A stretch of DNA of 23,536 bases from a virus. The DNA lies in the IMG/VR virus record IMGVR_UViG_3300019886_000028, positions 1 through 23,536 of that record. One strand, written 5' to 3'. The translations under genes and the position numbers were made by a program. This document shows positions 1,847 to 20,655 of the stretch, piece after piece (positions within the stretch are counted from its first letter, which is position 1; every line of letters begins with the position of its first letter). The notes beneath the pieces were generated by a model, which had not been told where the DNA came from, ran no database searches, and was given only the letters and a program-made list of their open reading frames with translations.

Positions 1847-4141
1847 TCAATCAATCGAACAAATGTGGTAAAGTTTTCCAACTGTCTTATATTTAGTCAA
1901 CTCTGCTCCTTTCAATTCAACTAGATTACCAGCATCTATTAAAACCTGAAGCGTCCTTTTTAGTGCCGCCGTTCCTCCTAACTTATCATTTAAGAAAGGA
2001 GATAGCTTACCTAAACGATTATTAAGATAGGCATTATTAACAACTTTATCTTTATGCTGAGCATCAATTCCTCTATATTTTCGTATGTAAGATACATCTT
2101 TATCCATATATTCTTTCAAAATACGCAAAGCTTCATTGTATTGTTTAAGCTCAAATGAACTAGACCCAATTTCACCAGCTTCAAAACGCTCAGTTAAAGC
2201 AGCAATATCAGCTTGAACAAGCTTAGCGGCCCATTCCATATGATTGACTTGAATTGTAGGTTCCCACATATGTTCGCCAACAGCAATCAATGCTGACAGC
2301 TTCAAGACTTTAATGTGGGCACGGTTCCAAAGTTGTCTAATTACTTCTTTATTAGAGCTATTAATCTTATTATCGGCAAACTTATCAAAATCATAAAGCA
2401 TCTTAGCTGCTTCAGGACTTGATTGCACATTAATACAACGTCTTGGATTAGAATAATTTATACCTTCACATTGAGCAACTAATGAAGCAACATTTCCAAT
2501 TAACGCTGTAGAAGGATGTATTTCTGTATGATGTTCATTAAGCGCAGGACGATTGCCCTTATACTCAATCAATAAGAAGCGAGGCAATAAGCCTTCACTA
2601 ATCATATCTTCGTTTAATGCTCCATAAAAACGCTCTGGAGTACTTTCCCCAAGAATACTAAAAGAGGGAGAAGGTACAGCACTAGTATTATTCGCCTTGT
2701 CTGAGTAAACGGAGGCATGAAGTATCTCGCTATGACCAGACTTGTTATAAAGGTCAAGAAACATGCGACGCAAACTAACTTCTGATCCGTTAGCATTAGG
2801 GCTGCTCATTTGTTGAAGGCGCAAACCAAACTCGCCCAATAGACTGATAAAGGATTGTGATGTATGACCTAAGTATTTAAATAGGGCTGCACCAGATGAT
2901 ATTTCTGATGGGCCAATGAAATATTGACTAGTCGGAACTTGCATCTTAATTGTATTCATTATCTTATTAATACCAGATGCAGCAGCTTCTTTACCTGCTC
3001 CAGTCATGGCTAAAAGCAGCACGTATTGATTTAATCCTGTACCTGAGATATTGTAGGCTCTACCGCAAATGCCAGCCATAAGCCCTATGGCCGCTGCCAA
3101 GGCTACTTCTGGTACGGGGCGAGGTGCAGCTTGATAAATGAAGCTAGCTATGTCGCCAAGCAATCCCGGTGGAAGCTCAAGATTAGATGACAGTATTGGA
3201 TCAGCTATCGCATTGCTCAACTTTAATTCCAATGCTTCTTTTAAGCTGGATATGTCTATATTTGGTATTTGCGCTAGAGGTTTATTTACTGCATTGCTAT
3301 ATGCACCGGGTAAATAATCCTTACGATTAAACTTCTCAGCTTTATCCTTTGGGCCAATTTTGCGCTGATACCCAAGTTTGCTATTCTTCATTATTCTTAT
3401 AGCTTGCTCAGCGCTGATATCATAGAACACAAGGAAATTCATGAAAGCTAGATCAATAGCTGACCTATCAGAACCTTCAGGATATCCGTTATAATAAAGC
3501 TCTTTAAATTGCTCGCCATTAGCAGCAGAACAAATTTTAGCTATCAATTCCTCATCTGTGCCAATTGCAACTGTAGCGACAGGATTAAGTTGAACTATAT
3601 TAGAATTGGGTCTAAAGGCTTGCTGCAATTTATTCAGCAATTCTTGGCATTCAGCAATAGGCTTATCATTATAAACCTTACCAGTGAAAATCAAGTAATG
3701 GTCGGATGAATAACACTCAACACCCCATTCTTGATTTTTAAATCCGCCTTTACCATCTTCTAAATGAAGTTCACCTTTGCCCACAATGTGACAACCGTTG
3801 CCAGACAGGCTAACTTCACTGTAGCAATTGAAATCGTCATGAATGGACTGATGCACAGGGCCACGCCTTGCTTCAGACTGCGTTTTGTCTAAGTCAATAA
3901 TGAAGTATGGATCAGCTTTAGTTAAAACTAACCCAATACCAATTAAATCATTGGTGCCAACTGCTGCAACGCAATGCTCAAAACTATTCCATGATGTAGG
4001 TCTATCAACGCTAGCTTGCCAACCATTCACTTGAAATAGATTTTTATCAGCCTTACAACATACCCATTGATTGAGTAGGCGCAATTCTTCCGGGATGTTC
4101 ATATACAAATTAGCCACGTCTCGCCCCTTATGGCTAATCAT
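1847..4141 (-). CDS. primase-polymerase / DUF3987-type helicase fusion
   Basis: This 764-residue replication protein has two parts. Residues 1-180 resemble the archaeo-eukaryotic primase-polymerase fold seen in phage NrS-1-type polymerases: an N-terminal NQWVCCK segment, the metal-binding DLD at 83-85, SGNGCHIVG at 113-121, a conserved VE at 141-142 and FTGK at 152-155. Residues 225-285 match the small helical domain that follows in that family (LAFMNFLVFYDISAEQ, then KLGYQRK). From about 325 comes a RecA-fold ATPase of the DUF3987 type, with Walker A AMTGAGKE (378-385) and a Walker B-like FISLLGEFG (431-439). It should unwind and prime DNA at the fork. The ATG overlaps the stop of the upstream regulator gene (ATGA), so the two are coupled. 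Confidence 0.85.
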   Translation of the reverse strand: MISHKGRDVANLYMNIPEELRLLNQWVCCKADKNLFQVNGWQASVDRPTSWNSFEHCVAAVGTNDLIGIGLVLTKADPYFIIDLDKTQSEARRGPVHQSIHDDFNCYSEVSLSGNGCHIVGKGELHLEDGKGGFKNQEWGVECYSSDHYLIFTGKVYNDKPIAECQELLNKLQQAFRPNSNIVQLNPVATVAIGTDEELIAKICSAANGEQFKELYYNGYPEGSDRSAIDLAFMNFLVFYDISAEQAIRIMKNSKLGYQRKIGPKDKAEKFNRKDYLPGAYSNAVNKPLAQIPNIDISSLKEALELKLSNAIADPILSSNLELPPGLLGDIASFIYQAAPRPVPEVALAAAIGLMAGICGRAYNISGTGLNQYVLLLAMTGAGKEAAASGINKIMNTIKMQVPTSQYFIGPSEISSGAALFKYLGHTSQSFISLLGEFGLRLQQMSSPNANGSEVSLRRMFLDLYNKSGHSEILHASVYSDKANNTSAVPSPSFSILGESTPERFYGALNEDMISEGLLPRFLLIEYKGNRPALNEHHTEIHPSTALIGNVASLVAQCEGINYSNPRRCINVQSSPEAAKMLYDFDKFADNKINSSNKEVIRQLWNRAHIKVLKLSALIAVGEHMWEPTIQVNHMEWAAKLVQADIAALTERFEAGEIGSSSFELKQYNEALRILKEYMDKDVSYIRKYRGIDAQHKDKVVNNAYLNNRLGKLSPFLNDKLGGTAALKRTLQVLIDAGNLVELKGAELTKYKTVGKLYHICSID

Positions 4142-5609: not shown

Positions 5610-6119
5610 ATGAACACTTGGCCTCTGCAATCGGCTACTCCTTGGCCTAATGCCCCTTCCAATCCCCTAGACGCCATGTCAGAGGATCAGCTTCTAATGC
5701 TATGGGATAGCAAAAAGAAAGCTATTGAAGTAGCTAAAGAAGAAGAAATGGACTTGCGCAAGTATATTGTGGGCAGGGAATTTCCTAAGAAAACTGAAGG
5801 TATGAATACCAAAGAATTAGGCAATGGTTACCAGCTTAAAGCAGCAGTTAAATATAATTACAATTTGGCTGATAATGATACGGTTGAAGAAAAACTCAAC
5901 AAAATTTCTTCACTTGGAAACATGGGTCCATTTATTGCGGATCGTCTGGTTAGTTGGAAACCATCATTCCTATTGACCGAGTATCGTCAACTGTGCGAAG
6001 ATGAAGCTAAAGGTGATAAGTTTGCTAAAAGTGTTTTGAATATTGTAAACGAAATGCTTACTGTGACTGAAGCTGCGCCTAGCCTTGAGATAAAGGAGCC
6101 GAAAGGTAAGAAGAAATGA
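5610..6119 (+). CDS. conserved phage recombination-cluster protein (DUF7173-like)
   Basis: This 169-residue protein begins with a Pro-rich stretch and continues with a long charged helix (AIEVAKEEEMDLRKYIVGREF), the conserved KKTEGMNTKELGNGYQLKAAV, a central low-complexity NYNLADNDT, then RLVSWKPSFLLTEYRQL and a tail with LEIKEPKGKKK. I recognise this order from phage proteins placed next to Sak4-type ATPases and ssDNA-binding proteins. No biochemical function is established that I know of. The Sak4-like gene follows two genes later, so a role in recombination or replication is likely by context. Confidence 0.6.
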   Translation: MNTWPLQSATPWPNAPSNPLDAMSEDQLLMLWDSKKKAIEVAKEEEMDLRKYIVGREFPKKTEGMNTKELGNGYQLKAAVKYNYNLADNDTVEEKLNKISSLGNMGPFIADRLVSWKPSFLLTEYRQLCEDEAKGDKFAKSVLNIVNEMLTVTEAAPSLEIKEPKGKKK

Positions 6120-6373: not shown

Positions 6374-7048
6374 ATGCAAATGTCTGATCTAAGACCAGCC
6401 CGTGACTTCGCATTACAGTTTGGCTGCAAAGCATTAATCTATGGAGGAGCAGGCACGGGCAAGACACCAATTTTTAATACTGCTCCTCGCCCATTGCTGT
6501 TAGCGTGCGAGCCCGGACTACTATCAATGCGTGGTAGCACTATTCCAACGTATGAAGCTTACACAGCACCACGAATTGATGAATTTTTTAAATGGTTTTT
6601 TAATTCAGCAGAAACTAAAAACTTTGATACGCTTGGTATTGACAGCACGTCACAAATGGCAGATATATATCTTCAAGATGCCGCAAAGACTATTAAGCAT
6701 GGCTTGCAGCAATATGGCGAAATGGCAACCAAGACCATGAACCATTTGCGTACACTTTACTTTACACGTCAGAAGCACACGTATCTAATTTGTAAGGAGG
6801 AAATTTTAACAATAAATAATATTCAAATGAGACGGCCCTATTTTCCGGGTAAGCAGCTAAACGTTGACATACCTTTTATGTTTGATGTTATCGCGCATCT
6901 TTCTAAAGTGCCTATCCCGAATGTAGGAGAACAATTAGCCTTCCGTTGCATTGGTTCTTATGATGTAATGGCACGTAATAGAGTTGGTACACTAAACGAA
7001 TTTGAACCGCCGGACTTTACGGCAATTGTCAATAAATGTATGGTGTGA
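6374..7048 (+). CDS. Sak4-like RecA-fold ATPase (single-strand annealing)
   Basis: The 224-residue protein has Walker A GGAGTGKT (24-31) and a Walker B-like FDTLGIDST (84-92). These are followed by the QYGEMATKTMNHLRTLYF segment and a KHTYLICKEE strand, as in the AAA_24 / Sak4 family. Sak4 proteins are short RecA-like ATPases of phages that promote annealing or strand exchange, usually together with a phage SSB. An SSB-like gene lies downstream at 8240, supporting the assignment. The usual length is about 220-260 residues, so this copy is complete. A second ATG two codons in (6380) is possible. There is no clear Shine-Dalgarno. Confidence 0.8.
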   Translation: MQMSDLRPARDFALQFGCKALIYGGAGTGKTPIFNTAPRPLLLACEPGLLSMRGSTIPTYEAYTAPRIDEFFKWFFNSAETKNFDTLGIDSTSQMADIYLQDAAKTIKHGLQQYGEMATKTMNHLRTLYFTRQKHTYLICKEEILTINNIQMRRPYFPGKQLNVDIPFMFDVIAHLSKVPIPNVGEQLAFRCIGSYDVMARNRVGTLNEFEPPDFTAIVNKCMV

Positions 7049-8239: not shown

Positions 8240-8878
8240 ATGTCGCCGTACAACGCAACTTTCGACGCTAACCAATTCGAACCACGTCAATCTGCTGGTG
8301 GTCATCCAGTCGGAAATAAGTTTCCATTTGAAATTAGTCACACTGAAGTTAAGCCTACCAAGGATGGTACTGGTGGAATGTTTGTTGTGACATTCACAAC
8401 GCCAGCAGGACAGATTGACTATCGTTACAATCTGTTTAATCAGAGCGCTAAGGCTGTTGAAATTGCTCATGGTCAATTCTCAGCACTTTGCCGCGCTGTT
8501 GGTCGCTATCAGGTTGATTTTAACAATGATGGCGCAATCCTTCGCGGTGCTAAAGGTTGCTTGGATGTTAACTATCAAAAGGGCGAAGAACCTACCGCTG
8601 AGCGTCCTGAAGGTGGTTATGTTGAAGTCAAGAAAATCTATGACGTGAATGGCAATGAACCGGGCAAGGCTCCTGCCCAAGCTGCTCCTGCTCAGGGGTT
8701 TGCCAACCAAGGCCCAGCGCCAGCAGCAGGGCAAGTCCTACAGCAGCAGTCGGGCGGCGGTTGGGGGAATGGTGCCCAGCCTGCGGCAAACGCACCAGCG
8801 GCTTCCCAGCAGACCGCGCAAGCATGGTCTCCCGGTGGTCAAGGAAATACGGCAAATCCACCATGGGGTTCGCGCTAG
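8240..8878 (+). CDS. DUF669-like single-stranded-DNA-binding protein (212 aa)
   Basis: Residues 1-130 form the strand-rich core: KFPFEISHTEVKPTKDGTGG, MFVVTFTTPAG, YNLFNQSAKAVEIAHGQFSA and LCRAVGRYQVDF, as in DUF669-type phage proteins, which act as SSBs beside Sak4 annealases. Residues 140-212 are a Gln/Ala/Pro/Gly-rich disordered tail. Bacterial SSBs end in an acidic tip with Pro-Phe. This one ends NPPWGSR, with no acidic cluster, so it should not recruit host SSB partners in the usual way. The tail is much more GC-rich than the surrounding DNA. AAGGA lies about ten bases before the ATG. The DNA-binding role is inferred from the core pattern and from context. Confidence 0.7.
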   Translation: MSPYNATFDANQFEPRQSAGGHPVGNKFPFEISHTEVKPTKDGTGGMFVVTFTTPAGQIDYRYNLFNQSAKAVEIAHGQFSALCRAVGRYQVDFNNDGAILRGAKGCLDVNYQKGEEPTAERPEGGYVEVKKIYDVNGNEPGKAPAQAAPAQGFANQGPAPAAGQVLQQQSGGGWGNGAQPAANAPAASQQTAQAWSPGGQGNTANPPWGSR

Positions 8879-8974: not shown

Positions 8975-9832
8975 ATGCTTGATTTAAATAATAAAGATGA
9001 CCGCAATAAACTAGAAGAATTGATTACTGATGATATTAATCAGTTTTGCGCAACCTATTATGAAAGTGGCCATAGAAAGCATTTAGGAGCTTCAGAGTTA
9101 GGCGAGGAATGTTGGCGCAAACTCTGGTATGGTTTTAGATGGACTAAACGGCAGGTGCATGACGGCAGAATACTGCGCTTATTCAACGTTGGTCATTCTG
9201 CTGAGCCTCGCTTTATTACTTATTTGCGCGGCATTGGATTTGAAGTTAGGGAGTTTGATGAAAATGGCAAACAGTTTAGAATTAGTGGAGCGAACGGACA
9301 CTACGGTGGTTCCCTTGATGGAATGTGTAAAGCCCCCGCACGCTATGAAATTAGCGAAGATGTTGTACTCCTCAATGAATATAAAACTAATGGAACAGGA
9401 GCAGGTTACACCAATGTAGTCAAAGGGCTACAAAAAGCCAAGCCCAAACACTTTGCGCAAATGAGCCAATACGGTTTTAAAAAAGGTTTAAAGTACGGTC
9501 TATATTTAATTGAAAATAAAAATGACAGTGACATAACGGTTAAGATTGTTATACTTGATTGGAATTTAGGTGCTCAAATGGAGCGCAAGGCTGAAGAAAT
9601 AATTTTTGCTAAAGAGCCTCCCCCGCGCATATCTGATAACCCTGCGTTTCAAGCGTGCCAATGGTGCCATCAAAGAGATATCTGTCACAAAGGAGAACAG
9701 CCTGAACGTAATTGTAGAAGCTGTAGGCAATGTTCGCCAGTCGAAGAAGGACAATGGCATTGCTCTAAATTTAATGATGTTGTGCCTGATGATTTTATAG
9801 TCAAGGGTTGTCCAGATTGGTTGCCAATTTAA
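8975..9832 (+). CDS. Cas4/RecB-like PD-(D/E)XK nuclease with extra zinc module
   Basis: The 285-residue protein shows the catalytic core HSAE (74-77), GGSLDG with Asp115, NEYK with Glu135 and Lys137, and QMSQYG (162-167). Cys46 in GEECWRK together with Cys228, Cys231 and Cys237 (CQWCHQRDIC) matches the four-cysteine cluster of Cas4/AddB-type nucleases, likely Fe-S. A second Cys set at the C-terminus (247, 250, 253, 263, 279; CRSCRQC...C...GCPDW) is extra and probably binds zinc. Such nucleases process DNA ends in recombination and replication, which fits the Sak4 and helicase neighbours. AAAGG lies before the ATG. Confidence 0.8.
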   Translation: MLDLNNKDDRNKLEELITDDINQFCATYYESGHRKHLGASELGEECWRKLWYGFRWTKRQVHDGRILRLFNVGHSAEPRFITYLRGIGFEVREFDENGKQFRISGANGHYGGSLDGMCKAPARYEISEDVVLLNEYKTNGTGAGYTNVVKGLQKAKPKHFAQMSQYGFKKGLKYGLYLIENKNDSDITVKIVILDWNLGAQMERKAEEIIFAKEPPPRISDNPAFQACQWCHQRDICHKGEQPERNCRSCRQCSPVEEGQWHCSKFNDVVPDDFIVKGCPDWLPI

Positions 9833-9833
9833 A

Positions 9834-11429
9834 ATGATAACACCTAGATATTATCAGGAAGAAGCTCTAAAAGCTGTTTACCAATTCTTTATGACACATA
9901 AAGAAGGTAATCCACTTATCGGGCTTCCTACTGGTACTGGCAAGTCAGTACTACCTGCTATTTTTATTAATCGCGTTATGAAGCAATGGCCAAATCAACG
10001 TTTTCTTTTGGTGACGCACGTCAAAGAATTAATCGCGCAAAACGCTAATGTCATGATGAAAGTATGGCCTGAAGCGCCACTTGGAATTTACAGTGCTGGT
10101 TTAAAACTTAAACAAACTGCTCAGCCTATCGTGTTCGGCGGCATTCAAAGTATGATAAGAAATCCTGCTTTATTTGGCCATCGCGATATCGCTTTTGTTG
10201 ATGAAGCTCACTTGGTTTCTGCCAATGACAGCAGCCAATATCAAACTTTTTTTGCTCATTTAAAATTGATTAATCCGAATTTAAAGATTATAGGAATGTC
10301 CGCGACCCTGTACCGCATGGGCATGGGGATGATCACAGAAAACGGCCTTTTCTCGCATGTCGCGTATGACATGACGAATATGGACGGCTTCAATAGGCTG
10401 GTAAATGAAGGTTTTATTTCTCCTTTAATTCCACTCCGCACTAAAACAGAACTAGACATTTCAGACGTTAGCGTACAGCAAGGCGAGTTTGTCGCGACAC
10501 AACTTCAAGGGGCAGTTGATAAAGCTCCTATAACTTTTAAAGCACTTCAGGAATTGGTACATGCCGGGCAATCCAGAAAATCTTGGCTTATCTTTGCATC
10601 AGGAATTGAACACGCTGAACATATCGCTGAGCAACTTGGGGCTTTTGGTGTTGACTGCGCACCTGTCCATTCCAAGCGGCCAGCGGAATATAATGATGCC
10701 GCAATTAAAGCGTTTAAAGCAAATGAGCTTAGAGCTATCGTCAATTACGGAAAGCTTACGACAGGCTTTGATCACCCATCCATCGACTTAATCGGAATGC
10801 TGCGTCCTACGTTATCTGTGCCTCTATGGGTACAAATGTTAGGACGTGGTACTAGGCCAGCAGACGGCAAAAAGAATTGTTTGGTCATGGATTTTGCTCG
10901 TAATACACCGCGTCTAGGACCAATTAATGATCCTCAAATACCCACAAAGAAAAGCTCTGCTCCCGGTGAAATGCCAATTAAAATTTGCGAAAACTGCGGT
11001 ACGTACAATCATATCTCTGCTAGACTTTGCTGTAATTGTGGGGAGCAGTTTAGCTTTCAGCAAAAGTTAGTTGGCAAAGCAGGAAGCGACGAATTAATTA
11101 AAGTTGCTGCAACCGAAGCTGTACCGATCATTGAGACATTCAATGTAGTATCTGCTCACTACGTCAAGCACGATGGAAAATTTGGTAAGCCTCCTACTTT
11201 AAAAGCAACTTATTTCACCAGCGGATTAGCCTTTAAAGAATTTGTTTGCTTGGAACACAATGGAATGGCTGGTAAGATAGCGCGGGATTGGTGGCGACGC
11301 AGGCATAAGGAAGAACCACCTAGGACAGTTGATGAAGCATTAGGGTTTGTTTCGCAGTTACGAGTGCCTAGACAGATTAGAGTGCATGTTAATAAAACTT
11401 ATCCTGAGATTTTAAATGCGGAGTTTTAA
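9834..11429 (+). CDS. SF2 DEAD/DEAH-type DNA helicase with zinc ribbon (531 aa)
   Basis: The helicase motifs are in order: LPTGTGKS (motif I, about 35-42), IAFVDEAHL (motif II, about 122-130), GMSATLYR (motif III), FASG (motif IV), VNYGKLTTGFDHPS (motif V) and QMLGRGTRPADGK (motif VI). A C-terminal zinc ribbon follows (CENCGTYNHISARLCCNCGE, two CxxC pairs). The tail includes a basic DWWRRRHKEE segment that I recall from related phage helicases. It resembles UvsW-like or SSL2-like enzymes that remodel forks and recombination intermediates. The start directly follows the nuclease stop (one base apart), so the two are probably co-expressed. Confidence 0.85.
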   Translation: MITPRYYQEEALKAVYQFFMTHKEGNPLIGLPTGTGKSVLPAIFINRVMKQWPNQRFLLVTHVKELIAQNANVMMKVWPEAPLGIYSAGLKLKQTAQPIVFGGIQSMIRNPALFGHRDIAFVDEAHLVSANDSSQYQTFFAHLKLINPNLKIIGMSATLYRMGMGMITENGLFSHVAYDMTNMDGFNRLVNEGFISPLIPLRTKTELDISDVSVQQGEFVATQLQGAVDKAPITFKALQELVHAGQSRKSWLIFASGIEHAEHIAEQLGAFGVDCAPVHSKRPAEYNDAAIKAFKANELRAIVNYGKLTTGFDHPSIDLIGMLRPTLSVPLWVQMLGRGTRPADGKKNCLVMDFARNTPRLGPINDPQIPTKKSSAPGEMPIKICENCGTYNHISARLCCNCGEQFSFQQKLVGKAGSDELIKVAATEAVPIIETFNVVSAHYVKHDGKFGKPPTLKATYFTSGLAFKEFVCLEHNGMAGKIARDWWRRRHKEEPPRTVDEALGFVSQLRVPRQIRVHVNKTYPEILNAEF

Positions 11430-11431
11430 TA

Positions 11432-11605
11432 ATGCTGCGCACCTTAATAGCCCTAATAGTTTTCTGTTTAACCCTGAGCGTATCTTATGTGACCGATGCT
11501 AGACGCTATCGACATAGGCACCATTACGTTAAGCAGATTGTTCCTCTACCGCAGGAAAGAATAGCTACGTTTGAAGATTTGTGGAATGAAAGAAGTTTAA
11601 AATGA
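11432..11605 (+). CDS. small exported His/Arg-rich protein (57 aa)
   Basis: The 57-residue product begins MLRTLIALIVFCLTLSVSYV, a hydrophobic signal-like segment, followed by DARRYRHRHHYVKQIVPLP. GGAG lies directly over the helicase stop codon, eight bases before the ATG, and the 16-base site-plus-start (11420-11435) is identical to that at 5043-5058. The stop overlaps the DUF3310 start. The mature part is short, basic and His-rich, so metal or surface binding is conceivable. It is one of three exported-type proteins in the replication block. I do not recognise the family. Confidence 0.7.
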   Translation: MLRTLIALIVFCLTLSVSYVTDARRYRHRHHYVKQIVPLPQERIATFEDLWNERSLK

Positions 11606-11829
11606 ATGAAAAAATAAATCATCCTAATCATTACGGCGGTAAAGACAATCCTTATGAAGCTATCAAAGTTATTGAAGCATGGGAGCTTGGATTTAATTTA
11701 GGAAACACTGTAAAGTATATAAGCAGGGCAGGTAAAAAAGAAAGTTTATTGGAAGATTTAAAGAAAGCAGCTTGGTATCTTGATAGAGAAATTAAAAATG
11801 CAGAAAACGCATTGCCTAAGAGGACATGA
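11602..11829 (+). CDS. DUF3310 phage protein (75 aa)
   Basis: NHPNHYGGKDNPYEAIKVIE, then LGNTVKYISRAGKKESLLED and DLKKAAWYLDREI is the DUF3310 signature (H-P-x-H-Y, E-x-I-x-V-I-E, A/G-N-x-V-K-Y-x-x-R-x-G-K, L-x-K-A-x-W-Y-L). The family is widespread in phages, and a nucleotide-metabolism role has been proposed for related phage proteins, but the reaction here is not shown. The start overlaps the stop of the exported small protein (ATGA, 11602-11605), and the 3' end overlaps the next gene by 32 bases. Confidence 0.85.
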   Translation: MNEKINHPNHYGGKDNPYEAIKVIEAWELGFNLGNTVKYISRAGKKESLLEDLKKAAWYLDREIKNAENALPKRT

Positions 11830-12406: not shown

Positions 12407-13417
12407 ATGGCACGCGCACCACGCTCAACCAAGACTGAACCTACCAAATCAAGTTTGCTAACTGCTCTAGAGTTCTGCTCATGCGTATCTGATAAGTTAG
12501 GAGCAAGCTATGAAACGCATATTGGTTTGCGAAATCATTGGGCTATTGCTTTCAATGGGATTGTTGCTGCTGGGTCACCAATTGTGGAAGACATTTACGC
12601 TCACCCACACAATTTATTGCTCATCGAAGCTTTGTCAAAATGTGATGATGTTTTTTCATTAACTCAGCTAGACAATGGCAGGCTTTCAATCAAGTCTGGT
12701 AAGTTCAAAGCTGTAGTGCCTTGTCTTGATCCTGCGTTGATGCAAGACGCGCTGCCTGATCCTTTGCTAGCTCCCATCACCAATAAATTTAGGGACGCTG
12801 TAGCGGCTGTTGGCGTACTCGCAAACGAAGATGCTCAACACGTTCTAATGGCTTCTGTGCTTATGAACGGTGCTTCTGTTATCTCTACCAATCGCGTGAT
12901 GTTGCTGGAATACTGGCATGGGTTAGACCTTCCGTTTAATATTCCATTGCCAAAAGAATTTGTAACAGCATTGGTGAAGTGCAAAAAGAATTTAACAGGC
13001 TTTGGATTTAGTCGCTCTAGCGCTACCTTCTATTTCGAAGATGGATGTTGGCTTAGGACGCAATTATATTCTGACGAATGGCCAGATGTTTCGCGCATTC
13101 TAAACCGCGAAGCTAATCTATGGAATATTGATCCGCAGTTTTTTAAAGCTCTAGAAAGTGTTGCGCCATTCTCAGATGATGGTAATGTTTATTCTGATAC
13201 AAATCTTTTAATGTCTCATGCTGATCATGGAATAGGGGCCGAGTTTGAATGTAACGGCATTCCGAAAGGATTTATTTATCCGATTAAACAATTAATGATT
13301 ATGAAACCATACGTTCGCAAAATTGATTATATGGCTAATGGAGTTGCTGATAGTAGCTATTGTCTGGTGTTTCAAGGGGATAGTTTGAGAGGAATGATCA
13401 GTGGTCGTCAACGCTGA
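12407..13417 (+). CDS. DNA polymerase sliding-clamp-like protein (beta-clamp fold, 336 aa)
   Basis: Sequence features resemble the bacterial DNA polymerase III beta clamp. ISTNRVMLLEYW (159-170) stands where ATDGHRLA is found, followed by LPFNIPLPKEFVTALVKC (175-192) as in the 'PRK-x-x-x-E-L' strand-helix. LYSDEWPDVSRIL (220-232) matches the FPDY-x-x-V-I/L-P signature. The length (336) is slightly below the usual 360-375. Clamps ring the DNA and tether polymerases. The gene ends inside the next gene, the family B polymerase (17-base overlap), which supports a joint function. The Asp/Gly/His of the ATDGHR motif are not conserved, so this is a divergent member. No clamp loader is seen in this window. 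Confidence 0.7.
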   Translation: MARAPRSTKTEPTKSSLLTALEFCSCVSDKLGASYETHIGLRNHWAIAFNGIVAAGSPIVEDIYAHPHNLLLIEALSKCDDVFSLTQLDNGRLSIKSGKFKAVVPCLDPALMQDALPDPLLAPITNKFRDAVAAVGVLANEDAQHVLMASVLMNGASVISTNRVMLLEYWHGLDLPFNIPLPKEFVTALVKCKKNLTGFGFSRSSATFYFEDGCWLRTQLYSDEWPDVSRILNREANLWNIDPQFFKALESVAPFSDDGNVYSDTNLLMSHADHGIGAEFECNGIPKGFIYPIKQLMIMKPYVRKIDYMANGVADSSYCLVFQGDSLRGMISGRQR

Positions 13418-15335
13418 AGGTCTAATAACCCTAGACCGCGCTGTAATGCTCAAACCCTATCAGCCTCGCCAATTCATTGAGCGAGAATATCTGACTGATG
13501 CTGAAATTCTAAGCTTCACTAACTATCCTGCGTTTGTGGATGTTGAATGCTATCCAAATTATTTTTTAATCAGTTTTAAAATTAATGGTAAGTTTCTATG
13601 CTTAGAGTGTGGGCAAAATCGTGGCTTCAATCCAAGAATGCTATCTTGGATAATGAACAGTTATAAAACCGTCGGATTTAATTCGATCAAATATGATCTA
13701 TTAATGATATGGCTTGCTTACACTACACAGGACACTCATGTTTTAAAAGATGCTTCAAACGATATCATCGTTAGGGAAATGCGAAAGCAAGACCTTCAAA
13801 AAGAATATCAGTTTTTTTCACCTAAGACTTCTCATGTTGACCTCATTGAAGTAGCTCCACTCAAAGGCTCATTAAAATTATATGGAGCTAGGCTTCATTC
13901 ACCTCGTATTCAGGAATTACCTTATCCAGATACACAAGAATTGAATGAAAAAGAAATTGAAATTGTTCGCAATTATAATTTCAATGACCTTGACGTTACA
14001 GAACAATTATATAATTTTATGAAAGAACGCTTGGAACTTCGCGAGGCTATGAGCATTGAGTATAACGAAGATTTAATGAGCAAGTCTGATGCTCAAATTG
14101 CAGAAGTTATTTTGGCTAAAGAAGTTGGAAAGCTAAACGGAAAGCGACCACAAAGAGCTACAATAGAAGCTGGTACTGTCTACCGCTATATCATTCCAGA
14201 TTATATCCAGTATAAAACGCCAACCTTAAACAGTTTATTAGAACGGCTCAGAGTTGCTAAATTCATTGTACAGCCTTCAGGCAAGATTGCTATTCCTGAA
14301 GAACTAAAGACATCTGTTCAAATTAATAAGGGGGTATACCGTCTTGGAATCGGTGGATTACATTCGTCTGAAGAAACTGTTACATATAAAGCAACGGAAG
14401 ATATGGCTATTGTCGATAGGGACGTGGCTAGCTATTATCCTAGGCTTATCACTACTCTTAAGTTATTTCCCGCATCCTGTGGTCCTAATTTCTTAGTTGC
14501 GTTTAATAAAATTATTGATATTCGTTTAGATGCCAAGAAAAAGAAAATCTTTTCCAGAGATAAAGGATTAAAGATTGTTATCAATGGAACATCAGGTAAG
14601 TTAAGTGATGTTTGGTCTATCTTTTACGCTCCTGATTTAACAATCCAAATGACTGTATCAGGTCAACTAGCGTTGCTAATGTTCATTGAATGGCTGGAGC
14701 TATCAGGTATACAAGTTATTAGCGCTAATACTGACGGCATTGTTATGCTAGTGACAAAAGATAAAGAAGAAACTTTAAAACAAATTGTAGCTCATTGGGA
14801 AAAGACAACAGGATTTGAAACAGAAGAAACTAGATACAAAAGCTATCATGCAAGGGATGTTAATGCTTATTTTGCTGTGAAAATGGACGGTAGCGTTAAA
14901 GTTAAGGGAAATCCTTATTCAGAAGTTGGCTCGCAATCAGGAACACAATTAGATGTTAATCCTTCAATACTTATCTGCTCTGACGCTATCAAATCCTTTC
15001 TTGCTAATGGCAAACCCATTGAGCAAACCATCAGAGAATGCCGAGACTTCACAAGATTTATCAACGTTAGACAAGCAAAGTCTCCCGGTGCCCACAAATC
15101 AGGGGAGTATTTGGGAAAGGTCCTCAGATGGTACTATGCGATTAGTGAAACAGGCTCAATTAACACAGTACAAGCTAATAACAAAGTAGCTGATAGTGAT
15201 GAAGCTAAGCCAGCAATGGATATGCCTAAAGACTGGCCAGACGATTTAAATTACCAATGGTACATAGACAAGGCTAACGAAATATTGTATGAAATTGGAT
15301 ATTTAACTAGACCTAAACAAGTGGAGTTCTTTTGA
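13401..15335 (+). CDS. family B DNA polymerase, compact (644 aa)
   Basis: The exonuclease motifs are present: FVDVEC (Asp47/Glu49), VGFNSIKYDL (Asn94, Asp99) and YNFNDLDVTEQLY (Tyr192, Asp196). The polymerase motifs are A: DVASYYPRLI (Asp341), B: KIVINGTSGK (Lys391, Asn395) and C: SANTDGIVML (Asp445). Motif C has N-T-D-G where D-T-D-S is usual; the second Asp, the catalytic one in the family, remains. At 644 residues it is shorter than the 750-900 of most phage family B enzymes. The GTG start overlaps the clamp gene and has AGAGGA seven bases upstream. The C-terminus ends TRPKQVEFF, which resembles a clamp-binding peptide. It should replicate the phage genome with proofreading. Confidence 0.85.
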   Translation: MVVNAEGLITLDRAVMLKPYQPRQFIEREYLTDAEILSFTNYPAFVDVECYPNYFLISFKINGKFLCLECGQNRGFNPRMLSWIMNSYKTVGFNSIKYDLLMIWLAYTTQDTHVLKDASNDIIVREMRKQDLQKEYQFFSPKTSHVDLIEVAPLKGSLKLYGARLHSPRIQELPYPDTQELNEKEIEIVRNYNFNDLDVTEQLYNFMKERLELREAMSIEYNEDLMSKSDAQIAEVILAKEVGKLNGKRPQRATIEAGTVYRYIIPDYIQYKTPTLNSLLERLRVAKFIVQPSGKIAIPEELKTSVQINKGVYRLGIGGLHSSEETVTYKATEDMAIVDRDVASYYPRLITTLKLFPASCGPNFLVAFNKIIDIRLDAKKKKIFSRDKGLKIVINGTSGKLSDVWSIFYAPDLTIQMTVSGQLALLMFIEWLELSGIQVISANTDGIVMLVTKDKEETLKQIVAHWEKTTGFETEETRYKSYHARDVNAYFAVKMDGSVKVKGNPYSEVGSQSGTQLDVNPSILICSDAIKSFLANGKPIEQTIRECRDFTRFINVRQAKSPGAHKSGEYLGKVLRWYYAISETGSINTVQANNKVADSDEAKPAMDMPKDWPDDLNYQWYIDKANEILYEIGYLTRPKQVEFF

Positions 15336-17831: not shown

Positions 17832-20558
17832 TTATTGAACTCTAAACATAGTTACAGCTTCTGCGCCTAATGTACAGTTAGTTATAACTAACATCCACAT
17901 GCTACCAGTATTATTAGCTACAGTTAATACGTTTGTAGTACTAGCTAAAGTTACACCAGCGCCAGCAACTAAAGTTGCAATTTGGCCAGTATTTCTGTTA
18001 CCATATGATATTGTACGGCTCATAGGAACGTCGCAAGCATTGCCGGGTCCGCCAGATGTAGACTGAACAATTTGCTGTGCGGTAGGAGTAGTATCACTAA
18101 ATCCAGCGCCGGGAGCACCAGTACGATCAATATGTCCTGTTAGTAATTGAGCAGCGGTAAGTGTAACGCCAACACCAGAACTCACATTAACAGTAGTTGC
18201 TCCTGTCCATAATTTAGCTGAAGTAGCCCCTACTGTAGACCCATTACCTAATTGAAAGCTATCAGGTTGGGTCAACAAGCGAGCATAAGAGCCAATTCCC
18301 CATGCTCTTTGCAAAGCTGTAGCATTACGTTTTCCGCAAAGTTCACCTATACATTCTAAATTACTGTCACCACTAATTCCAAATACATTGGCTCCTACAT
18401 TTGGAAATCCGGCAGGAATGGCTGAACCGGCTAAAGCAGCCCCACCAGCAGTATCTCCAATCGCAGTAACTTGAACATTAGCAACGCCAACAAATAAAGC
18501 TGCGTGGCCAACTGCTGTATTGTGATCGCCAACAGTTTCGGCAAGCATTGACGCGCGACCCATTGCAACATTAGAGCCGCAAGTAGTACACTGGCGTAAC
18601 GCTTGATTTCCTAAAGCTGAATTATAGTTTTGTGTGATAACACCATTATGTAAGTTTTGACCTACCAGATACCCTATAAGAGTATTTCCAGTATCAACAG
18701 TTAGTGCTCCTCCATTGCCAGAACCTATGAGAACATTTTGAGTACCAGTAGTTAAACCTAATCCTGCTCCGGACCCAATAGAAATGTTATCAGCAGCACC
18801 ATTCATAACTGGAGACGTTGTGGTGTCGCCAATGCCAAAACTAGCTGTACTAGCAGTACCGCGAGTAAAAGAAAATCCATTAATAGAAGTAGCTGTAGCT
18901 ACTCCTAATGTTGGAGTTATAAAAACAGGACTTGTCGTCATAGCAACATTAGCAGTACCACTAATGTTATATTCACCTAAAATACCAGCATTATCAAATA
19001 AAACTCTAGTGGTAGTTCCTGCTGTTACAACAGTAGAACCTACAGTTAAAGCTGAACTCAAAACAGTAGCGCTAATAGTGTTTCCGGTACAAAGCAGTCC
19101 TGCTCCACAAGCAACACTTCCTGTCATACCACCTAAAGCTGTAACGCCAGATGCAGTAGCAGAATTATCATCAGGCAAAACTTTAATTATATAGTTTGAA
19201 GTTTTAGTAGGTGGAACAATACTTTTTAAAATAGGAGTTGTGGTATAAGTAACTGTTAGCTGTCCGCCAGTTCCCCCGCCACCAGTAGTAGCAGCAGGAT
19301 TATTGGGAGGAGATGTACAACTACCAGCAGTCAATAAAACAGGAGGATTGGTAAAAGCATTTCCAACTACTGTAACCGTAAACTGAGGCTGAGTAGCACA
19401 AGTACCACCAGCAATTGTAATTGTTTGAGCACCATTAGTATAACCAGAACCGGGGGCACTAACAACAGCAGCATTTGCCACTCCACCAAATGCAGCCGGT
19501 ATTCCAGTAAAAGTAGCGCCAGTTAAAGTTACAGCGCGTGGCGTCCCCCCGCTAGTAGTTAAAGCCGTAAAACTAGCTCCTGCTGTACCAGCTACACCTA
19601 AACTATCAAAAGAACCAGTTCCGCCGATAGTTCCAGCAGGAGCATAGCCAGAAGGAAGATTTCCATTTGTTAGTGTGATACTAGTATTTTCTGCACCACC
19701 AGCAGCGCCAGACGAATTTGGATCAGTCGCGCCAAAATAAGTAGTAGTCAACCTATTAGCTGCCACTCCTCCCATTATATCATTGCCAGCGATAGCAAAG
19801 CCTCTAAAGTCTGGCATATTAAAAGTAGTGCTTCCGTTACCTCTACCCCATGGAAAAAATATACCATTAGTGTTAATAGTAACGTTAGCATTTACAGCCA
19901 TAGTTACTGTAGTAGCAGTTTTAGAAATAACAGTAGTAAAACCGGGAGCTACACAACTAATTTCAATAGTCATCCCTATCCAAAAATTAGTTGTATCGCC
20001 AAGTCCACTTAAAATAGGACTTCCTGAATTACAAAAAACAGATTGAGTAGAAGTAATAGCTGTAAATAAAGCAGAATATGTAGTACGTGAAAGCTCCTGC
20101 CCATATGTAAAAACATATTGATTAGGGGCTGTCATACCAGCCCAAGGCTTAATCGTCCCTACTAAATCACCATCACCAGTTGCAGTAGAACCGCCTCCTC
20201 CACCTGATCCGGTAGAAGATGTAACTTGATCCCAAATAACATTATTAAGTCTATCTTTAACAACTTGACGATAAGAACCTGAGCCTAAAAGTAATGCTCT
20301 ACCTGCTGCATCTAACGTAAGTGGATTAGCATTAGGAATAGTCTCGGCAGCATCTTGCCAAGTTGTTTTATGAGTAGTGGTAGCAGGAATAAAACTTTCT
20401 ACAGTTCCCGCCGTTAAAGGTTTCCCATTCGCATCTATAAAGGTTGTCTTGGCAGGAGGAAGAATGCTAGCAGTCTGCGCATAGGCAAAATGCATTTGTG
20501 CGACCACAAGCACAGACAATAAGAAAGTTTTAAAGATGGAATGGGTAACACTTTTCAT
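17832..20558 (-). CDS. tail fibre/collar protein with a Sec-type signal peptide (908 aa)
   Basis: Start at the ATG at 20558 (AGGA eight bases upstream). Residues 1-27 (MKSVTHSIFKTFLLSVLVVA...FAYA) form a signal peptide, unusual for a virion protein. Next comes a fibre N-terminal domain (ILPPAKTTFIDANGKPL... YRQVVKDRLNNVIWDQVTS), a Gly linker near 115-124, and a tail-collar domain (GTIKPWAGMTAPNQ at about 134, then TTFNMPDFRGFAIAGN at about 244) interrupted by a roughly 70-residue insertion. Gly/Ser/Thr-rich beta repeats with GSGYTNG follow, then a trimeric-autotransporter-like stretch (SNVAMGRASM, HNTAVGHAAL). The C-terminus (YGNRNTGQIATLVAGAG) ends in a small beta domain. It should form the receptor-binding fibre. 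Confidence 0.75.
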   Translation of the reverse strand: MKSVTHSIFKTFLLSVLVVAQMHFAYAQTASILPPAKTTFIDANGKPLTAGTVESFIPATTTHKTTWQDAAETIPNANPLTLDAAGRALLLGSGSYRQVVKDRLNNVIWDQVTSSTGSGGGGGSTATGDGDLVGTIKPWAGMTAPNQYVFTYGQELSRTTYSALFTAITSTQSVFCNSGSPILSGLGDTTNFWIGMTIEISCVAPGFTTVISKTATTVTMAVNANVTINTNGIFFPWGRGNGSTTFNMPDFRGFAIAGNDIMGGVAANRLTTTYFGATDPNSSGAAGGAENTSITLTNGNLPSGYAPAGTIGGTGSFDSLGVAGTAGASFTALTTSGGTPRAVTLTGATFTGIPAAFGGVANAAVVSAPGSGYTNGAQTITIAGGTCATQPQFTVTVVGNAFTNPPVLLTAGSCTSPPNNPAATTGGGGTGGQLTVTYTTTPILKSIVPPTKTSNYIIKVLPDDNSATASGVTALGGMTGSVACGAGLLCTGNTISATVLSSALTVGSTVVTAGTTTRVLFDNAGILGEYNISGTANVAMTTSPVFITPTLGVATATSINGFSFTRGTASTASFGIGDTTTSPVMNGAADNISIGSGAGLGLTTGTQNVLIGSGNGGALTVDTGNTLIGYLVGQNLHNGVITQNYNSALGNQALRQCTTCGSNVAMGRASMLAETVGDHNTAVGHAALFVGVANVQVTAIGDTAGGAALAGSAIPAGFPNVGANVFGISGDSNLECIGELCGKRNATALQRAWGIGSYARLLTQPDSFQLGNGSTVGATSAKLWTGATTVNVSSGVGVTLTAAQLLTGHIDRTGAPGAGFSDTTPTAQQIVQSTSGGPGNACDVPMSRTISYGNRNTGQIATLVAGAGVTLASTTNVLTVANNTGSMWMLVITNCTLGAEAVTMFRVQ

Positions 20559-20655
20559 AATCTTCTTCCTGCTATTTAAATTTCGCAATTACGTTTGGAT
20601 GCCCACAATTCTAATCGTCATAGCATATTTTTGGTGGAAATCAGAAAATTATCGT

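Follow-up and report, generated by a model that had tools for sequence, protein, structure and literature searches.

How does a phage that encodes a bacterial-type sliding clamp directly upstream of a family B DNA polymerase bring the two proteins together, and what loads the clamp onto DNA? The locus that raises this question lies in IMG/VR record IMGVR_UViG_3300019886_000028; the window, meaning the whole 23,536-base stretch analysed here, is a genome fragment whose completeness is not given. The clamp ORF (12407-13417, + strand) begins with ATG and encodes 336 aa, and the polymerase ORF (13401-15335, + strand) begins with GTG and encodes 644 aa. This GTG is the first start downstream of an in-frame TGA at 13395-13397, and the clamp stop codon TGA (13415-13417) falls 17 bases inside the polymerase gene, such that the overlap spans 13401-13417. 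The initial annotation thus had both ORFs and the 17-base overlap right, but the genes are not fused, as it had put it; two ORFs overlap. We rejected the overlap as a conserved coupling device. The polymerase gene lies downstream of the clamp gene on the same strand in 163/163 de-duplicated loci, and with predicted starts the two overlap in only 58 of these, so the overlap is no family trait; gaps are 0-100 bases in 49 loci, 100-1000 in 52 and >1000 in four.

The pair closes a rightward replication block, all on the + strand, in the order Sak4-like ATPase (6374-7048; phrog_124, E 1.2e-41, and PF13479), single-strand DNA-binding protein (8240-8878; phrog_6015, E 3.5e-35), Cas4-domain exonuclease (8975-9832; phrog_1990, E 7.1e-92), superfamily 2 helicase (9834-11429; phrog_16, E 4.3e-82), clamp, polymerase. 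The block also holds proteins with DUF7173 (5610-6119, E 1.7e-32) and DUF3310 (11602-11829, E 9.8e-17). A primase-helicase is encoded on the opposite strand (1847-4141, - strand; phrog_3022, E 7e-186). Elsewhere in the window a repetitive-looking protein of 918 aa (17835-20588, - strand) has only weak phage-family matches, such as the phrog_8763 tail protein (E 7.1e-6).

The 336-aa protein had been read as a bacterial-type clamp, and this reading is well borne out. Its family match is phrog_947, "DNA polymerase processivity factor" (E 1.2e-50, clamp residues 8-333 on positions 3-362 of 368). An AF2 model of the single chain, built from 60 window and IMG/VR sequences, has pLDDT 92.1 and pTM 0.85, and the top 50 of 50 Foldseek matches to it in the PDB are bacterial beta clamps or complexes holding one, Helicobacter pylori beta being the best (E 7.5e-18). 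VIA-align places 317 of the 336 residues end to end on Caulobacter crescentus beta (Z 27.2, rmsd 2.7, 14% identity) and gives Z 25.6 for Escherichia coli 2pol. The three tandem clamp domains that the protein had been expected to show are found in the model, at about residues 13-120, 121-232 and 233-336 with boundaries inferred from secondary structure. The model therefore confirms the predicted three-domain bacterial beta-clamp fold, and the clamp would form a dimeric ring around phage DNA. By sequence, profile searches place the protein among clamps in part: in addition to the phrog_947 match, a 60-row clamp profile matches H. pylori beta (E 4.4e-4, over 213 profile positions), but a Pfam scan of the single sequence finds no clamp domain at any E value up to 1, the sole signal being a weak Autoind_bind match below the cut-off, and phmmer with the single sequence against PDB sequences yields chance matches only. 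Bacterial DnaN proteins share the fold along their full length (Z 25-27), yet with 9-18% identity among the VIA-align matches listed; the window clamp is about 30 residues shorter, and its C-terminal residues appear, from the end-to-end alignment ranges, to differ at the Gln subsite.

The segments STNRVMLLEY, LPKEFVTALVK and SDEWPDVSRIL, which had been picked out as clamp signatures, are residues 160-169, 181-191 and 222-232. The profile alignment to H. pylori beta puts STNRVM on the strand of Thr172 and aligns WPDVSRIL to the PDY segment that holds Pro242. Thr161 (12887-12889, + strand) and Pro226 (13082-13084, + strand) are thereby aligned with positions that, passing through the H. pylori protein, we take to be E. 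coli Thr172 and Pro242 of the partner-peptide pocket. Across the 60 aligned rows both are near-invariant (at least 90%), and these two are the reliably aligned pocket positions. The list of pocket residues comes from the available part of PMC11139829.

A phage with its own clamp plus a family B polymerase had been called unusual, which does not hold. Among 50,697 phage records, 354 contain a relative of the clamp; the match covers at least 80% of the query in 286, identity is <60% throughout, and many of these proteins are deposited as "replicative clamp", "DNA polymerase III beta subunit" or "DNA polymerase III sliding clamp". Phages DLP1 and DLP2 have genes listed as replicative clamp and DNA polymerase (PMC4559383, available part), and MMDA13 has a gene of the clamp family listed as "DNA polymerase III beta subunit" (PMC7472734, available part). 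The phages with phrog_947 (Septimatrevirus, Lokivirus, Kilunavirus, Queuovirinae, Kleczkowskavirus and others) match full-length and keep the same clamp-polymerase order; in phages 73, KL1, Halfdan and Pavpe01 the replication block is the same as that of the window. Pavpe01 is the best-ranked named phage, with at most 43% identity to the window clamp, while the close group of the window clamp (68-82% identity) is known here from IMG/VR contigs alone. A scan with the BUCT627 clamp gave no matches, and a scan of genome contigs found one distant clamp locus, 30% identical, in a Gammaproteobacteria MAG. The locus is thus an ordinary one, a further phage clamp of a known family beside a polymerase of a known family.

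The downstream gene was likewise correctly taken for a family B polymerase. It matches phrog_1252 (E 2.7e-179), carries the 3'-5' exonuclease motifs and motifs A, B and C, and its AF2 model (pLDDT 91.1) finds family B polymerases with Foldseek, led by archaeal enzymes and including E. coli Pol II. In 34 aligned rows, E49, N94, D99, D339, Y346-P347, K391, N395-G396 and T444-D445-G446 are invariant. Motif C reads N-T-D-G rather than the usual D-T-D (residues 443-446, window positions 14727-14738); N443, T444, D445 and G446 are all invariant in the 34 rows. The PolB_SITDG polymerases, in which the first Asp is lost, are described as a different group (PMC7544198, available part). Relatives of the window polymerase occur in 999 of the 50,697 phage records versus 354 for the clamp, so this polymerase is also found without a clamp of the phrog_947 type.

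The window polymerase ends in ...RPKQVEFF; in the seven IMG/VR relatives closest to it the end is PKQ/PRQ-x-x-FF. E. coli DNA polymerase II, also of family B, has the clamp-binding peptide QLGLF, and T4 gp43 has its clamp peptide at the C-terminus, the same end as the tag that we propose here. This candidate clamp-docking tag is QVEFF (residues 640-644; 15318-15332, + strand), which comes close to the beta-binding rule Q-aliphatic-x-[L/M]-[F/L] given in the available part of PMC11139829; positions 1, 2, 3 and 5 fit the rule and position 4 is Phe. The same part of that source places the beta-binding motif at the C-terminus in Pol II, as in the window polymerase, and in Pol IV, and gives a Gln-less AMSLF for the loader delta subunit. 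Polymerase II is a host repair enzyme working on the host clamp, whereas in the phage pair the clamp is phage-encoded. The window polymerase probably docks on its clamp through QVEFF, to judge from the peptide sequence.

Wider sampling suggests that such tags extend across two polymerase families. The polymerase downstream of the clamp is mostly of family B (PolB) and in a minority of family A (PolA, phrog_17), and these two families are not homologous. We placed 133 clamps, thinned from 162 at more than about 75% shared 5-mers, in a quick tree with SH-aLRT support only; 21 stand beside PolA and 112 beside PolB. The polymerase label changes 10 times on this tree, and at least two of the changes are forced by starred branches. 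There are two clamp lineages, one with Queuovirinae and the other with the window, and nearly all of the polymerases beside the 133 clamps have a short aromatic tag at one terminus. A W-type N-terminal tag, defined post hoc as G, hydrophobic, F/W/H/Y, W, any residue, D/E, is present in 11/11 PolA and 52/54 PolB of the Queuovirinae clamp lineage and in 0/10 PolA and 0/58 PolB of the window lineage. In the former, PolA and PolB share the start R-x-D-x-x-G-[LF]-F-W-x-D. In the latter, nine of 10 PolA have an FFDD-like start; of the 54 PolB whose C-terminus is closed, 51 carry a hydrophobic-F (or LW) tag there, QISFF, QLQFF and QIEFF being typical ends, and 10 of the 58 PolB have an FFDD-like start, alone or besides the C-terminal tag. 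Loci repeating already sampled contigs or records were left out of the counts, as was L140, treated as near L028. In three PolB leaders (L130, L133 and L186) an insert holding GFWAEQ or GFWAEA precedes the usual proline-rich leader segment.

Several controls bear on how far the W-type tag could arise by chance. First, it was found near the start of 0/1114 other ORFs of 200 aa or more, and shuffled leaders give <0.1 expected tags in all; a stricter related test for the C-terminal tag (hydrophobic-F in the last four residues) is matched by 92 of 1093 other ORFs. Second, among loci gathered after the tag idea had been formed, although before the exact pattern was drawn, 12/12 PolA and 59/61 PolB carry it. 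Third, upstream of the core the R is present in 66/66 PolB and 13/14 PolA, and so is the D (66/66 and 13/14); these rows were picked by their GxFW core, such that only the flanking positions are independent evidence. Fourth, a profile of PolB leaders matched 20 PolA, with E down to 1.9e-11, the only other matches at <0.9 being four polymerase ORFs truncated at contig ends. We also considered homology of the whole N-terminal leader between PolA and PolB, and set it aside as weak: with the tag removed, hmmsearch finds four PolA (best E 0.0086) and hhalign aligns 25 columns (E 3.6e-6). Since removing the tag takes away most of the similarity between PolA and PolB, the shared element comprises about 14 residues.

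A possible objection is that clamp binding is not what these terminal tags are for, and that polymerase folding, another partner or inheritance accounts for their conservation. Polymerases without a clamp neighbor bear on this. Our first tag regexes, set beforehand, picked up 67 of the 73 clamp-linked polymerases in the holdout, but eight of 13 clampless PolB as well; they were thus non-specific, and we replaced them with narrower post hoc definitions. Requiring the N-terminal tag to precede ExoI, again post hoc, gives 66/73 clamp-linked holdout polymerases and 4/13 clampless PolB. As clampless PolB controls we took nine named-phage relatives from matches without a clamp neighbor; phrog_947 is absent from eight of the nine records, and the remaining one has a 10-bit match. 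In these nine the start lies near the exonuclease motif or consists of unrelated residues, and a C-terminal extension is missing, although two of them, those of RHEph19 (QDLF near the end) and TaPaz (FF), match the simple C-terminal regex. In a scan of 80 PolA loci the tag is present in 26 of 33 with a clamp, a set that was not thinned and includes four contig repeats (L206, L207, L221 and L236; 29 without them), and in eight of 47 with no clamp nearby. A host-type QxxLF in the N-terminal leader shows the opposite distribution: 12 of the 47 PolA without a neighboring phage clamp have it (0.57 expected by shuffling) versus none of the 29 clamp-bearing PolA (0.21 expected).

The objection draws on the fact that clamp and polymerase adjoin and travel together. 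On a PolA tree of 98 rows clamp status changes about five times, leaving three independent pairs, and a test of independent contrasts between clamp status and tag gave no significance, having no power with three pairs; the clamp-tag association is thus not shown to be independent of descent. It also draws on three clampless PolA (L215, L218 and L220), which have tag-like N-termini (QTFFWDD, QADLFWET and QPDLFWET) in records with no phrog_947 match; none of the 19 whole records of clampless PolA and PolB loci had such a match. However, the QADLF of L218 and the QPDLF of L220, both among the eight tagged PolA with no clamp nearby, are of the host type, and all three starts look like intermediates between a host-type QxxLF and the phage W-type tag. 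The nine clampless PolB without extensions also speak against the objection, RHEph19 and TaPaz notwithstanding, and the stronger argument, from sequence comparison, is that two unrelated enzymes share a peptide beside one and the same clamp lineage. We consider it unlikely, although the most serious of the alternatives, that the tags serve something other than clamp binding, and we continue with the docking interpretation.

What then loads the ring? That the window holds no clamp loader had been noted from the start, and this stands: neither of the bacterial-type loader Pfams, PF13177 and PF06144, hit the window (0/1 each). Nor did either hit any of 29 related records, 19 of which are named phages deposited as complete genomes; in 14 control genomes PF13177 matched 13 and PF06144 matched eight. 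The generic AAA Pfam PF00004 hit none of the 29 records above the cut-off, and its weak matches, in 18 of them, include ORFs of the lengths of the Sak4 ATPase and the helicase. With no bacterial-type loader subunit found in the window or the related records, our best guess is that the phage ring is opened and loaded by the clamp loader of the host. The earlier suggestion that the phage borrows the host loader therefore stands as regards the absence of a phage loader subunit, and host loading itself has this status of a best guess.

One alternative is that an unrecognized phage clamp loader is encoded outside this 23.5-kb fragment; PF13177 and PF06144 could miss a loader subunit that has diverged very far or is of the small T4 type. 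The empty searches of 29 records, 19 of them from complete named phages, and the Sak4- and helicase-length ORFs among the sub-threshold PF00004 matches make this rather improbable. The T4 system of gp45, gp43 and gp44-62 resembles the window in pairing a phage clamp with a family B polymerase; unlike the window, T4 combines its own loader with a PCNA-like clamp (PMC7544198 and PMC7824862, available parts). Slightly less probable still is loading without any loader, in which the ring opens spontaneously or the polymerase does the loading. The failure to find a loader would fit this, as would the T4 clamp reported to be open in solution, but the model of our clamp is closest to the bacterial beta rings, which are described as stable and loader-requiring (both statements from the available part of PMC9690074). 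Finally, that the clamp is mainly a decoy or hub diverting host clamp partners, for which the retained pocket residues aligned with E. coli T172 and P242 might be cited, is very improbable given a polymerase gene downstream in every one of the 163 loci and tags that track clamp lineage across two polymerase families.

Building on the fold, the gene order, the polymerase class, the conservation of the tags and the lack of any detected bacterial-type loader subunit, we propose with good confidence the following mechanism. The beta-type clamp would form a dimeric ring on phage DNA and tether the product of the next gene downstream, the family B polymerase; the C-terminal QVEFF of the polymerase would plug into the partner pocket of the clamp, as the peptide of E. 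coli polymerase II does with the host clamp; and the host clamp loader would open and load the phage ring. In the wider family the clamp would be the constant part, to which a PolA or a PolB is fitted by a short N- or C-terminal tag.

We lean, by a modest margin of belief, toward a broader proposal, that a widespread phage replisome is built around this clamp as its fixed core, with PolA and PolB exchanged on it by means of a portable tag, their clampless kin carrying QxxLF and the phage tag being Gln-free and orthogonal. The portable peptide would be R-x-D-x-x-G-[LF]-F-W-x-D in one clamp lineage and FFDD or QxxFF in the other. The A-I-G-L-F-like core of the Gln-less tag resembles the AMSLF of delta more than QLxLF, and we hypothesize that the tag is an orthogonal code separating the phage polymerase from the host clamp. 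Neither shared end tags nor exchange of A and B polymerases on one clamp is described in the parts available of the literature searched (PMC7544198, PMC9690074, PMC10783043, PMC8775771, PMC7824862, PMC11946847, PMC11139829, PMC4559383 and PMC7472734), where we found the clamp annotation only.

The proposal poses a testable question: can a polymerase, whatever its family, be switched between host and phage clamps by a short end peptide alone? If it can, these phages would provide natural orthogonal clamp-tag pairs, and the tags would explain how phages replace one replicative polymerase by another and prevent its use of the host clamp.
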